DNA of 43,301 nucleotides. Source: Burkholderiaceae bacterium (GTDB lineage: Bacteria; Pseudomonadota; Gammaproteobacteria; Burkholderiales; Burkholderiaceae_C). Shown here piece by piece: positions 2,362 through 32,715 of this stretch. Each line of letters begins with the position of its first letter. Position 1 is the first letter of the stretch. Made by a program: the position numbers and the translations under genes. The stretch spans positions 1 through 43,301 of the forward strand of contig JAMLIT010000031.1 of assembly GCA_023954035.1 (NCBI GenBank), written 5' to 3'. The notes beneath the pieces were generated by a model. That model was not told the origin of the DNA. It did not search any database and worked only from the letters and a program-made list of their open reading frames with translations.

Positions 2362-2807
2362 GGGCGCAGTCCTTGCAGCAGTTTCTCGCCATGCGGCGTG
2401 CCTGCTTGCAAGGTGGCGCGCCGCGCGGTTTCGTTCAATGCTTCAATGTGGATAGCAAGGTCCGCAGGCGGGATCAGGCCGGCAGCCTTCTCTGGCCATT
2501 CTGCCAGCTTCAGGCCGGTGCTGGCAAATAGCTCGCGAAAACCCGCGTCTTCCCATTCGCGCGGGTTGCTGAAGCGGTAGAAATCAAAGTGCCAGATGGC
2601 AAGGTTTTCGGCTTCGTGCGGCTCCACCACGGCGTAGGTGGGGCTCTTGATGCGGCCCTGCACCCCGAGCGCGCGCAGCAGATGGCGCACCAGCGTGGTC
2701 TTGCCCGCGCCCAAGTCGCCCTGCAGGCTGAGAAAGGCGTTGGCGATACCCGGTAAGGCGGCGAGCTGTTGCGCGAAGGCCGCAGTATCGTCCTCACTCT
2801 CCCACAC
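2358..2807 (-). CDS. tsaE: tRNA threonylcarbamoyladenosine biosynthesis ATPase TsaE
   Basis: TsaE works with TsaB and TsaD to make the t6A37 modification on ANN-decoding tRNAs. The Walker A motif GDLGAGKTTLVRHLL and the family signature KSPTYAVVEPHEA followed by IWHFDFYR are all present, and LKLAEWPEKA is the typical C-terminal signature. The start is uncertain. No ATG occurs in frame; a GTG at 2805-2807 gives 149 aa with Walker A near residue 31, slightly shorter at the N-terminus than usual. A rarer ATT at 2846 would add 13 residues but would place the start against the queG promoter. It overlaps amiC by 4 bases and is divergent from queG. Confidence 0.9.
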   Translation of the reverse strand: MWESEDDTAAFAQQLAALPGIANAFLSLQGDLGAGKTTLVRHLLRALGVQGRIKSPTYAVVEPHEAENLAIWHFDFYRFSNPREWEDAGFRELFASTGLKLAEWPEKAAGLIPPADLAIHIEALNETARRATLQAGTPHGEKLLQGLRP

Positions 2808-2840
2808 CAGCGAGCGGGTCTTGTGCGCGGGGGGCGTTTC

Positions 2841-2846
2841 TACAAT
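2841..2846 (+). promoter_or_regulatory. -10-like box for queG (leaderless)
   Basis: TACAAT lies 6 bases before the queG ATG, with no Shine-Dalgarno sequence between. If used as a -10 box, transcription would begin at or next to the start codon. No good -35 is seen at 16-18 bases. Confidence 0.5.
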
Positions 2847-2852
2847 CGGGCG

Positions 2853-3932
2853 ATGGTGTTCAGCAGCAGTCAACTCGTTCCTCAAATTAAGCAATGGGCG
2901 CGCGAGCTGGGATTTTCCCAAATTGGCGTGGCCGGTGTGGATCTGTCGTCCGCCGAGCCGGGTTTGCAGGCCTGGCTGGCGCAGGGTTTTCATGGCGAGA
3001 TGCACTACATGGAGGCGCACGGTATGCGCCGCGCGCGCCCGGCGGAACTGGTGCCGGGCACGGTGAGCGTGATCACCGCGCGCATGGACTACCTTCCAAG
3101 AGACACGCCCGACGGCTGGCAAGCGATCGAATTTGCGCGTCTGGCCGACCCGCAGCAAGGCGCAGTTTCCGTTTATGCCCGGGGGCGCGACTACCACAAG
3201 GTGCTGCGCGCACGCCTGCAAAAGCTGTGCGACCGCATTGCCGAGGCCGTCGGCCCGACGGGCTACCGCGTATTCACAGATTCCGCGCCGGTGCTCGAAG
3301 CCGAGCTGGCCGCGCGCAGCGGGCAGGGCTGGCGCGGCAAACACACGCTGGTGCTCAACCGCGAAGCGGGCTCCATGTCGTTCCTGGGCGAGATCTACAT
3401 CGACATGCCACTGCCCGAGAGCGAGCCGGTCTCTTCGCACTGCGGAACCTGCCAGGCCTGCATCGACGTCTGCCCCACACAGGCCATCATTGCGCCCTAC
3501 CGGCTCGATGCCCGGCGCTGCATTTCCTACCTGACCATCGAGCATGCGGGTCCCATTCCGCTGGAGTTGCGGCGCCCGATCGGCAACCGCGTCTACGGCT
3601 GCGACGACTGCCAGCTGATCTGCCCCTGGAACAAGTATGCGCAGGCCAGTCCCTTGGCCGACTTCGATGCCCGCGCCGGGCTCAGCGGCGAGCAATTGGT
3701 GGATCTGTTTGCCTGGGACGAAGCGACGTTTTTGCGAACGACCGAAGGCGGCCCGATCCGCCGCATCGGCCACGAGCGGTGGCTGCGCAACGTGGCAGTG
3801 GCGCTGGGGAATGCCCTGGCCAAGACCCACGACGCCCGATTGCGCGCCGCGCTGAGCGCCCGCGCCGCGCACGAGAGCGCGCTGGTGCGCGAGCATGTGC
3901 AGTGGGCGCTGGAGAACGAAAATATTGAATGA
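2853..3932 (+). CDS. queG: Epoxyqueuosine reductase QueG
   Basis: A 359-aa cobalamin- and iron-sulfur-dependent enzyme that reduces epoxyqueuosine to queuosine in tRNA, the last step of queuosine synthesis. The two 4Fe-4S cluster motifs are clear: CGTCQACIDVCPTQAI near residue 195 and CDDCQLICPWNK near residue 250, with the N-terminal DUF1730 segment in front and a HEAT-like C-terminus. The ATG at 2853 gives the expected length and matches the typical N-terminus; an upstream in-frame ATG at 2769 would run back through tsaE. The last codons and the stop (AATATTGAATGA) coincide with the left end of a palindromic repeat that recurs at 27411, so the C-terminal Asn-Ile-Glu-stop appears to be repeat-derived. 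Confidence 0.95.
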   Translation: MVFSSSQLVPQIKQWARELGFSQIGVAGVDLSSAEPGLQAWLAQGFHGEMHYMEAHGMRRARPAELVPGTVSVITARMDYLPRDTPDGWQAIEFARLADPQQGAVSVYARGRDYHKVLRARLQKLCDRIAEAVGPTGYRVFTDSAPVLEAELAARSGQGWRGKHTLVLNREAGSMSFLGEIYIDMPLPESEPVSSHCGTCQACIDVCPTQAIIAPYRLDARRCISYLTIEHAGPIPLELRRPIGNRVYGCDDCQLICPWNKYAQASPLADFDARAGLSGEQLVDLFAWDEATFLRTTEGGPIRRIGHERWLRNVAVALGNALAKTHDARLRAALSARAAHESALVREHVQWALENENIE

Positions 3933-4155
3933 AATAGGCCTCTAGGGACGTCCTGCATAACTCCTCGCGGCGTGTGATAGCCCGGACTCGGGCGGTCTGC
4001 GTCGTTGCGTTTCACAGCCAATAGCTACGGCTATTGCCTGCAAAACGTGCCTAGCATCCCATCCCGATCCGCGCTACACCCACTCGCGTAGAGTTTTCCA
4101 GGACATCCCTAGCGCTTATTCTGTAAGCGTAAGCAGCTATCAATTGCATAGTATT
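3921..4155 (+). repeat. Palindromic AGCGCTTA repeat, copy a (interrupted)
   Basis: This is a copy of the dispersed repeat described at 32640. The left part (AATATTGAATGA...GGCCTCTAG, 3921-3945) and the right part (CTAGCGCTTATTCTGTAAGCG...AGCTAT, 4109-4142 and tail) are separated by the element at 3946-4108. Removing that element and one CTAG restores a normal copy. It lies between the convergent stop codons of queG and the AEC permease gene and contributes the queG stop. Confidence 0.85.
3946..4108. mobile_element. 163-bp palindromic MITE-like element with CTAG duplication
   Basis: The ends are GGACGTCCTG on the left and, on the other strand, GGATGTCCTG on the right. The similarity continues inward (AACTC, CGCG) as an imperfect inverted repeat along the whole element. 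The exact centre, 4027, is a perfect stem CAATAGC-TACG-GCTATTG (4019-4036). The flanks are CTAG at 3942-3945 and CTAG at 4109-4112, which reads as a 4-bp target-site duplication inside a dispersed repeat. It encodes no protein. A non-autonomous element mobilised by a transposase elsewhere in the genome is the simplest reading; the structure could also fold as a long hairpin RNA and help stop transcription from both convergent genes. Confidence 0.75.
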
Positions 4156-4159
4156 TAAC

Positions 4160-5065
4160 TTAGCGCAGCATCCCCAGCGCCAGCGACAAGCTGGCCGGTC
4201 CGAGCACGGTAGAGAGCGTCACCAGCCCCGCCACGTACGGCCCGTTGTAGCCCATGCGCGCCGCGAGCACGTAGCAGCTCGACGAAGTGGGCAAGGCCGC
4301 AAACGCCAACAGCACCGTGGTTTGCATGGCATCAAGCGCCAGGAGCCGCGCCACGCCCCAGGCCACCAGGGGTTGCAGCAGATGGCGGATGGACAGCACG
4401 GCGACGCTCAGCGGCCGGTTGTCCTTGAGCGAGCCAAACTGCAGTCCGGCGCCGGCCGCCATCAGTCCCAGGGCAATGGCTGCCGCGCCGACGCGGGTCA
4501 CGCTGGGCGCCAGGAGTTCTGGAATGTGCAGACCCAGCAGATTGGCGCACAGGCCGGCGCCGGTGGCCAGAATCAAGGGGTTGCGCAGCAGTTCGCGGGC
4601 AAAGTGGTGCTCGCCGTGGCGCGCCATGGGCCACACGGCGGCCACGTTGAAGAGCGGCACCGACACCCCGATCAGCACCGCAATCAGCTGCAGGCCTTGC
4701 GGGCCGGCCAGGCGATCGGCGAGTGCCAGGCCAATGAAGGAGTTGAAACGAAACGCCACCTGCGCCGCGCCCGCGTGCTCGCGCGCGTCGATGTGCCGGC
4801 GCAGCCCCGGCAGATAGGGCAGGGCATAGGCCATCGCAATGCCTGCCAGCCCGCTGAGCAGCCCCGCCGCAATCAGCGCCGAGGCCGGGCCCAGTTCGAT
4901 GGGGGTTTTGACGATGGACTGGAACAGCAGCACCGGAAACAGCAGGTAGTAGACCAGCGCTTCCACCGGCTGCCAGACGCTGCGGTTGAGTGGCGTGAAT
5001 CGGCACACCAGGTAACCCAGCAGGATGAGCGAGAAATCGGGAAAGAGGATTTGTGCGTAGACCAC
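4160..5065 (-). CDS. AEC-family transporter (auxin efflux carrier/malonate-malate permease type)
   Basis: A 301-aa inner-membrane protein of about ten hydrophobic helices, split into two halves of five by a short hydrophilic loop (MARHGEHHFARELLRNPL, about residues 148-165). The opening FSLILLGYLVCRF, the LLRNPLILATGAGL segment and a helix with TTVLLAFAALPTSSSCYVLA near the C-terminus are the recognisable AEC family features. Members export or import small organic anions such as malate or malonate; the substrate cannot be told from sequence. The gene is divergent from xerD with a 75-base spacer, and its stop codon abuts the tail of the repeat at 3921-4155. No operon partner is evident. Confidence 0.88.
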   Translation of the reverse strand: MVYAQILFPDFSLILLGYLVCRFTPLNRSVWQPVEALVYYLLFPVLLFQSIVKTPIELGPASALIAAGLLSGLAGIAMAYALPYLPGLRRHIDAREHAGAAQVAFRFNSFIGLALADRLAGPQGLQLIAVLIGVSVPLFNVAAVWPMARHGEHHFARELLRNPLILATGAGLCANLLGLHIPELLAPSVTRVGAAAIALGLMAAGAGLQFGSLKDNRPLSVAVLSIRHLLQPLVAWGVARLLALDAMQTTVLLAFAALPTSSSCYVLAARMGYNGPYVAGLVTLSTVLGPASLSLALGMLR

Positions 5066-11210: not shown

Positions 11211-11270
11211 AATAAAAATAGCTTCTAGCGCTTACCCAGTAAGCGTTGATAGCTATATTTTTGATAGTGA
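11211..11270 (+). repeat. Palindromic AGCGCTTA repeat, copy b
   Basis: This copy is close to a perfect hairpin from 11218 to 11256: outer arms ATAGCT and AGCTAT, inner arms AGCGCTTAC and GTAAGCGTT, three-base loop. It is bordered by AAAATA on the left and ATATTTTTG on the right. It sits between the convergent hslO and ftsB genes and could act as a terminator for both. Confidence 0.85.
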
Positions 11271-23259: not shown

Positions 23260-23302
23260 ACGCTTACTGGATAAGCGCTAGAGGCCATTTTTACTTCAAA
23301 AA
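23241..23302 (-). repeat. Palindromic AGCGCTTA repeat, copy d
   Basis: Read on the minus strand it gives GGCCTCTAGCGCTTATCC followed by AGTAAGCG and AGCTAT. It fills the 43-base gap between the 48-aa peptide gene and the methyltransferase gene and extends into the latter, providing its annotated start codon. Confidence 0.85.
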
Positions 23303-32639: not shown

Positions 32640-32715
32640 TTTTTGAAAAAATTTGACTGATTTTCGGCCTCTAGCGCTTATGCAGTAAGCGCTAATAGCT
32701 ATTAAAAGTATAGTG
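32640..32715 (+). repeat. Palindromic AGCGCTTA repeat, copy f (best-preserved)
   Basis: AGCGCTTA (32673-32680) and TAAGCGCT (32686-32693) form a perfect eight-base stem with a five-base loop, preceded by GGCCTCT and followed by AATAGCTATT. It sits between res and parC, and its right tail contains TATAGT (32709-32714) just before the parC start. Used here as the reference copy for the family. Confidence 0.9.
32709..32714 (+). promoter_or_regulatory. -10-like box for parC inside the repeat tail
   Basis: TATAGT ends 9 bases before the parC ATG; no Shine-Dalgarno sequence is present. The box lies in the tail of the dispersed repeat. Confidence 0.45.

Follow-up and report, generated by a model that had tools for sequence, protein, structure and literature searches.

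A palindromic IS5-group MITE downstream of queG and its apparent core in MITEs with different ends

The locus and the element

The DNA analysed here is a contig of 43,301 nucleotides from a Burkholderiaceae bacterium (assembly GCA_023954035.1, contig JAMLIT010000031.1; genome G000), referred to below as the window. Between two convergent genes, queG and a gene for a membrane transport protein, it carries a palindromic element flanked by CTAG tetranucleotides and adjoining a short repeat (Table 1). A first-pass annotation, made from the sequence alone, had delimited the element by exactly these coordinates, with the same sequence, between direct copies of CTAG, and both copies are read at the positions listed. 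It had also described an imperfect palindrome over the whole length. This is borne out by the arms 3942-3986 and 4068-4112, which are 71% complementary across 45 nt, and by folding: 3942-4112 folded as RNA gives -85.9 kcal/mol (z -9.3) and 3946-4108 folded as DNA gives -36.4 (z -4.4), values equalled by 0 of 200 shuffles in each case. The midpoint, 4027, had been assigned to a 7-bp stem and falls in the TACG loop of that stem (4026-4029). The ends are inverted repeats as claimed, with one correction: the right end in the window is one base off the copies in genomes G012 and G007. One altered end base gives the window copy the look of a fossil passed on by descent.

With its length of 163 bp, its terminal inverted repeats and no transposase gene, the element has the layout of a MITE. 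It is too short for a transposase, since the two insertion sequences (IS) with the same type of ends that were scanned encode proteins of 316-320 aa.

Table 1. Features at and around the insertion (positions in the window)
Feature	Position	Strand	Remarks
queG (epoxyqueuosine reductase), upstream, convergent	2859..3932	+	PF08331; ORF 2769-3932
Left target duplication CTAG	3942..3945	.	fits YTAR, as most flanks in the family do
Palindromic MITE of 163 bp, end type F1	3946..4108	+	bounds set by the duplication, by empty sites and by copies elsewhere
Left terminal inverted repeat GGACGTCCTGCATAACTC	3946..3963	+	17 of 18 bases as in an IS end (L237)
F1-specific left arm	3964..3986	+	arms 24-51% identical across end types
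Palindromic core TCGGGCGG...CATCCCGA, common to F1, F2, F3 and F4 MITEs	3987..4068	+	supported by covariation
Central apical 7-bp stem with TACG loop	4019..4036	+	
F1-specific right arm	4069..4090	+	basis as for left arm
Right terminal inverted repeat, GGATGTCCTGGAAAACTC on the - strand	4091..4108	-	one base unlike the G007 and G012 copies
Right target duplication CTAG	4109..4112	.	
AGCGCTTA...TAAGCG repeat; the target CTAG lay on its shoulder	4111..4129	+	
Membrane transport protein gene, PF03547, downstream, convergent	4160..5065	-	profile match

The insertion site

Removal of the element and one CTAG in silico yields GGCCTCTAGCGCTTATTCTGTAAGCG and restores the repeat, as had been predicted; the AGCGCTTA repeat itself recurs in the window far above chance, with 9 matches (up to 3 mismatches, both strands) against 0.11 expected. 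A small hairpin repeat, CTAGCGCTTA...TAAGCG...AGCTAT, is abundant (window positions 4111-4129, 11227-11245, 23261-23279 and 32673-32691) and also follows queG in many relatives.

Comparison with the empty site in relatives, proposed in the first-pass annotation, was made for 25 of the 26 genomes of the genus, G000 included, by reading 110 bases downstream of queG in each; G025 was omitted, its match extending over 44 bp only. A single uninterrupted CTAG occupies the orthologous site in nine genomes (G004, G007, G009, G013, G014, G017, G018, G020 and G021). G012 carries the same insertion, with an element 99% identical and CTGG as the left flank, and G024 has CTGG at this site and no element. 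The remaining 13 genomes are more diverged: no element was present in the bases read, and these either have no CTAG there or are too diverged to judge. Most simply, the insertion is older than the split between G000 and G012. The earlier claim of a real transposition event with exactly these boundaries is supported by the duplicated target, by the empty sites and by numerous copies that arose independently.

Another insertion-like stretch, of 99 bp, lies between queG and the same repeat in G018 (L147:1737-1835). Its ends are GGACTTGCGCA and GGACTTACACA, and its boxes GGCGTTGC and GCGCCTTGC resemble boxes of the core.

Copies, their distribution and their targets

In a search of 60 genomes, with no more than 14 candidates scored in each and copy numbers therefore lower bounds, matches occurred in 16 genomes (G000 included), all of the same genus, and extended from end to end in 9. 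Copies with 4-bp duplications of their own occur at other places in the genus and also in genera beyond it. The expectation of further copies thus holds for relatives, within the genus and outside it, and fails for the host genome, which has only one full copy. One G007 copy, at a different site (flanks TCAA/TTAA), is 99% identical to the window element, against 86% identity for the queG flank of that genome, which suggests that the copy moved or was transferred recently.

A scan of named genomes for the exact F1 end (the end type of the window element) next to YTAR returned 32 stretches: 25 from Acidovorax, 4 from Giesbergeria, 1 from Simplicispira hankyongi and 2 from MAGs whose names say no more than Desulfobacterales and Proteobacteria. 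In 26 of the stretches there is a partner end 159-163 bp away, F1-like (up to 2 mismatches) in 25 and different in one (L257); in L237 the partner is at 1216 bp, and 5 stretches have no partner. The partial copies fetched were truncated MITEs, with no IS among them, and the phage records searched gave no match to the element. In G025, an 80-bp half-length element (L062:2032-2111, contig C63) has F1-type tips at both ends and flanks that do not match; one tip seems to be derived from an internal CCTGCAAAAC beside the apex, which resembles an IS end.

The search with the element also recovered MITEs of equal size whose ends differ, and MITEs with three types of ends, F1, F2 and F3, were collected. 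The collection comprises 118 elements, 104 of them distinct (52 F1, 23 F2 and 29 F3 by left end), where distinct refers to sequence plus flanking tetramers, with the orthologues L001 and L004 counted twice and the identical L176 and L177 once. It was restricted to 155-168 bp, mostly with a minimum end score; part of the boundaries was set with a bonus for matching flanks, in one subset also for YTAR, and the F1, F2 and F3 end patterns contained YTAR. As a result of such selection, truncated copies and copies without a duplication are under-counted.

At the 17 loci bounded by BLAST alone, the duplication is perfect in 11, agrees in three of four positions in 3 and in fewer in 3; the perfect ones are CTAG (4), TTAG (2), CTAA, TTAA, CTTG, CTTA and TTAT. 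Among the 104 distinct elements, a set partly gathered using YTAR, flanks agree at four positions in 71, at three in 22 and at fewer in 11. With YTAR part of the patterns and scores that served to gather some of these elements, 66 of the 71 perfect duplications are CTAG, TTAG, TTAA or CTAA, and YTAR fits 165 of the 208 flanking tetramers. YTAR is given as the target of the IS5 group of the IS5 family (PMC10359306). CTAG is scarce in the longer fetched sequences, with 150 occurrences in 266 kb against about 870 expected from base composition. AGCGCTT-type repeats were scored at 9 of the 104 empty sites by scanning; by eye 7 are real, representing 6 independent insertions. At one locus of G018 (approximately L070:2454-2781, contig C62), one F2 and one F1 element form a tandem pair, CTAG-F2-CTAG-F1-CTAG, with their cores in opposite orientation.

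Insertion sequences with the same ends

With one mismatch allowed, YTAR joined to an F1 end occurs in 9 of 399 genomes of the family. At the same tolerance, the F2 end (GGARCCTCTGCAYGAATC) next to YTAR gave hits in 9 of 200 family genomes and the F3 end (GGCRATGCTGAAYAAGTC) in 22 of 200; reversed controls gave 0 throughout. F1 ends bound IS of 1183-1216 bp in G018 and G017, both of the genus of the host, in G177, G273 and G347, and at L237. G177 has 4 copies and G347 4 full copies plus a deleted one of 862 bp. For F1 IS with both flanks known, 7 of 12 have the same tetramer on either side, which is TTAG in three, CTAA in two, CTAG in one and TATG in one (G018). The flanks are unequal in five (L126, L130, L131, L134 and L237), and the right flank of the G017 copy is cut by a contig end. 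An F2 partner of 1170-1171 bp is present at 5 loci of G177 (one translated) and an F3 partner of 1167 bp at 1 locus of G064; both were located with the end patterns themselves, so that the search accounts for part of the agreement in their ends.

Two F1 proteins, one F2 and one F3 protein pass NF033581 (IS5-family transposase) with 327-346 bits for a cut-off of 140, and both F1 proteins scanned match Pfam DUF772 and DDE_Tnp_1. The F1 and F2 transposases are 67-71% identical, and that of F3 is 46-48% identical to either. The 18-bp ends and the YTAR target of the window element match those of IS roughly 1.2 kb long that encode an intact IS5-family transposase. When 8 elements were compared with 9 IS, the IS of the same type was the best match for 16 of 16 ends. 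Strong similarity is confined to the ends of about 18 bp; beyond, it reaches at best 73-76% over 29-30 bp, with E values of 0.7-2.4. The likeness of the arms to the IS past the 18-bp repeat is weak and independent of end type, and was discarded. Since the similarity is restricted to the ends, descent of the MITEs from these IS by deletion is not established.

No IS with F1 ends was found in G000, an 89%-complete draft, and an IS5-type element on its contig C33 has different ends. A listing of transposases and ends from 10 genomes provided three further types (L073, L074 and L075/L076) with YTAR-like flanks and other ends, which were set aside, and L080 and L081, whose F1 ends were then recognised. 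The absence of a transposase reported at first pass stands for DUF772 and DDE_Tnp_1, the two domains searched on the contig. From this absence it had been proposed that the mobilising enzyme acts in trans and that an IS with matching ends should be sought. Such IS5-family elements, sharing ends and target motif, occur in two genomes of the genus and beyond it, and we infer that the element was probably mobilised in trans.

A core common to MITEs with different ends

The element appears to be a mosaic, a property absent from the first-pass reading. To judge from the alignments, its inner 82 bp or so are common to MITEs of nearly equal size with F1, F2 or F3 ends, and each end type matches a different IS5-family transposon. 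Between types the arms are 24-51% identical, the ends 54-63%, the core stems 71-81% and the apex 57-72%.

Distances were computed for 99 elements, a set from which 5 of the 104 were dropped: L263 and L278 (unrelated interior), L257 (a chimera) and L208 and L209 (F2-type tips on F1 bodies). Mean core distances are 0.158 within F1, 0.111 within F2, 0.151 within F3, 0.164 between F2 and F3, 0.293 between F1 and F2 and 0.305 between F1 and F3. For ends plus arms the corresponding means are 0.152, 0.147, 0.170, 0.588, 0.470 and 0.581. Pairs whose cores differ by 0.10-0.15 have ends that differ by 0.12 if of the same type (n=487, maximum 0.36) and by 0.60 if they join F2 and F3 (n=223). In the core tree (99 rows) F1 forms one group and F2 plus F3 another (support 99%), and F2 and F3 are intermixed. 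In the ends tree (99 rows) the three types separate, with supports of 78, 93 and 99 and a long-branch warning. For the core, a single F2 clade is rejected with 104 rows (p 0.012) and, with 99 rows, a single clade is not rejected for F2 (p 0.36) or F3 (p 0.34); the mosaic inference uses short alignments of about 82 columns each.

Individual elements combine ends and cores in other ways. L257, from Acidovorax sp. HMWF029, is F1-like at 1-123 and F2-like at 124-163, with a sharp junction, and L208 and L209 of G018 have F2-type tips at both ends of F1 bodies. The core also occurs at 6 distinct loci in elements of 198-269 bp with a fourth type of ends, F4 (GAAC[TG]TG...), whose duplications are of 3 bp, with identical TTA or TAA at 4 of the 6; it is absent from 51-bp elements with F4 ends. 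The reverse case is provided by L263 and L278 of G128, two MITEs of 163 bp that have F2 ends, YTAR duplications and an interior unrelated to the core. In G197, a 273-bp F3-ended element with a TTAG duplication (L294:1505-1777) has apparent diverged core boxes, off centre.

The types could alternatively be an ordinary superfamily of IS5-group MITEs that descend from one ancestor: the ends would have drifted with their transposases and the constrained core would have stayed alike, with no exchange of modules. The common length (155-166 bp) and register of the three types, the common frame GG.....CTG.A of their ends, the single F2 or F3 core clade that the 99-row tests leave standing and the similar conservation of paired and unpaired core stem columns (given below) all agree with this. 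Within types, however, core and ends diverge about equally, so that the core is not much slower, and the F2 and F3 cores are about as distant from each other as cores within F1 despite their unlike ends. L257, as a direct chimera, and the presence of the core in the longer F4 MITEs with other ends likewise argue against a single line of descent, which we regard as decidedly unlikely.

Conservation of the hairpin

Twenty-four representatives with less than 88% mutual identity were drawn from 101 elements, L263, L278 and L257 having been removed first. Pairing is kept in 92% of cells for the whole structure and 93% for the core alone. Pairs changed on both sides number 24 of 42 in the whole structure and 12 of 23 in the core, values reached by 0 of 500 shuffles and much lower in slid controls, over which a structure taken from the same alignment is favoured. 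Covariation of the outermost pairs is expected, as both ends follow the transposase. Conservation in the core stem is 0.84 at paired and 0.86 at unpaired positions, and in the arms 0.59 and 0.62, and the conservation of unpaired core positions fits selection on the core.

The core covariation, and the position of the window copy between convergent genes, would suit a hairpin kept for an RNA or protein-binding role, such as protecting or ending transcripts, with transposition incidental. Paired changes could, however, also result from copying between the arms of a DNA palindrome, with one of them serving as template. Rfam returned no match above the gathering score in the window and no terminator- or promoter-like site was found in 3900-4200, and we consider such a role unlikely. 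The Rfam result speaks equally against a REP, ERIC or integron-attC palindrome of non-transposon origin, an interpretation that the strong palindrome, its intergenic position and its repetition among related genomes might invite. REP/RAYT systems are not known to make target duplications and have a tyrosine transposase as partner. The 4-bp duplications set the element apart from these systems and, with the empty sites and with ends and a target motif like those of IS5-family IS, leave this origin hardly credible.

Relationship to known elements

To judge from its features, the element is of a kind already known: it is an IS5-group MITE, and MITEPsy1 of Pseudomonas syringae pv. phaseolicola is a close counterpart. 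MITEPsy1 is described as an IS5-related element of 100 nt with 18-nt terminal repeats and 4-nt duplications of CTAG or YTAA; it transposes in vivo, and its authors think that the IS5-family ISPsy2 supplies the enzyme, though no ISPsy2 movement was trapped (PMC3189936). They call its distribution somewhat restricted, yet report similar sequences in other bacteria (PMC3189936). The window element resembles it in the IS5-type 18-nt repeats, the CTAG/YTA-type 4-nt target and, by eye only, a similar end frame (...TCTGAAAAAGCC). It differs in its length of 163 bp, and sharing a core with differently ended MITEs sets it apart from MITEPsy1 as there described. With IS5-group IS it has in common the YTAR duplication, and its F1, F2 and F3 partners the profile matches reported above; unlike these IS it has no transposase gene, and only the ends of about 18 bp are clearly common to both. 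TIMEs, as presented in the title of PMC4133298, are Tn3-derived miniature inverted-repeat elements that generate mosaic elements; the tie of such elements to mosaic formation is the likeness and the Tn3 origin the difference.

The usual account of bacterial MITEs derives them from a single insertion sequence by shortening. This view is quoted in the abstract of PMC5896051. Here it is the middle that the different kinds appear to have in common, and the ends read by the transposase look exchangeable. A search of the open-licence literature yielded no paper recognised as describing this family and no description of a re-ended core, and the IS and MITEs may have names in ISfinder.

How the core may have changed ends

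The reading that we consider very probable is that of a non-autonomous IS5-group MITE whose enzyme is encoded elsewhere and which belongs to a modular superfamily, the core having been re-ended and having changed its mobilising enzyme over time. An IS5-family transposase from another location would recognise the 18-bp ends and insert the element at YTAR, here CTAG, duplicating 4 bp. One hairpin core of about 82 bp would have acquired three or more sets of ends, and the match of F1, F2 and F3 each to a different IS5-family transposon suggests that the core changed enzymes; F4 would be a fourth set.

For the exchange of ends, insertion into rare CTAG-type sites duplicated by earlier insertions would bring differently ended elements next to each other. 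Their common core would then offer homology for recombination or template switching, by which the outer ends of two elements could come to lie on one core, and within the hairpin one arm could be copied onto the other. The tandem pair of G018, where each insertion duplicated its target, makes core-sharing neighbours a likely route to new combinations of ends, as we infer; the opposite orientation of the two cores would lead to inversion rather than deletion, which counts against this route.

With about even confidence, we would go further and regard the conserved palindromic core of about 80 bp as a module that can be exchanged between elements. It would have taken up four or more sets of transposon ends, some of them with 3-bp TNA duplications, and would persist by switching between distantly related transposases. 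Such MITEs would be lineages of a core rather than shortened derivatives of one IS. The core sequence itself may be under selection, for example as a site of exchange or as a bound hairpin. These elements could offer a concrete, testable system for non-autonomous elements that outlive their enzyme, in particular in G007, which carries the core in F1, F2, F3 and an F4-like element.

A 162-bp core-bearing F2 MITE with flanks CTAG/TTAG lies on the conjugative IncP plasmid pRK1-5 of Cupriavidus basilensis (L348:1466-1627). The core can thus travel, and plasmids are a possible vehicle between families.
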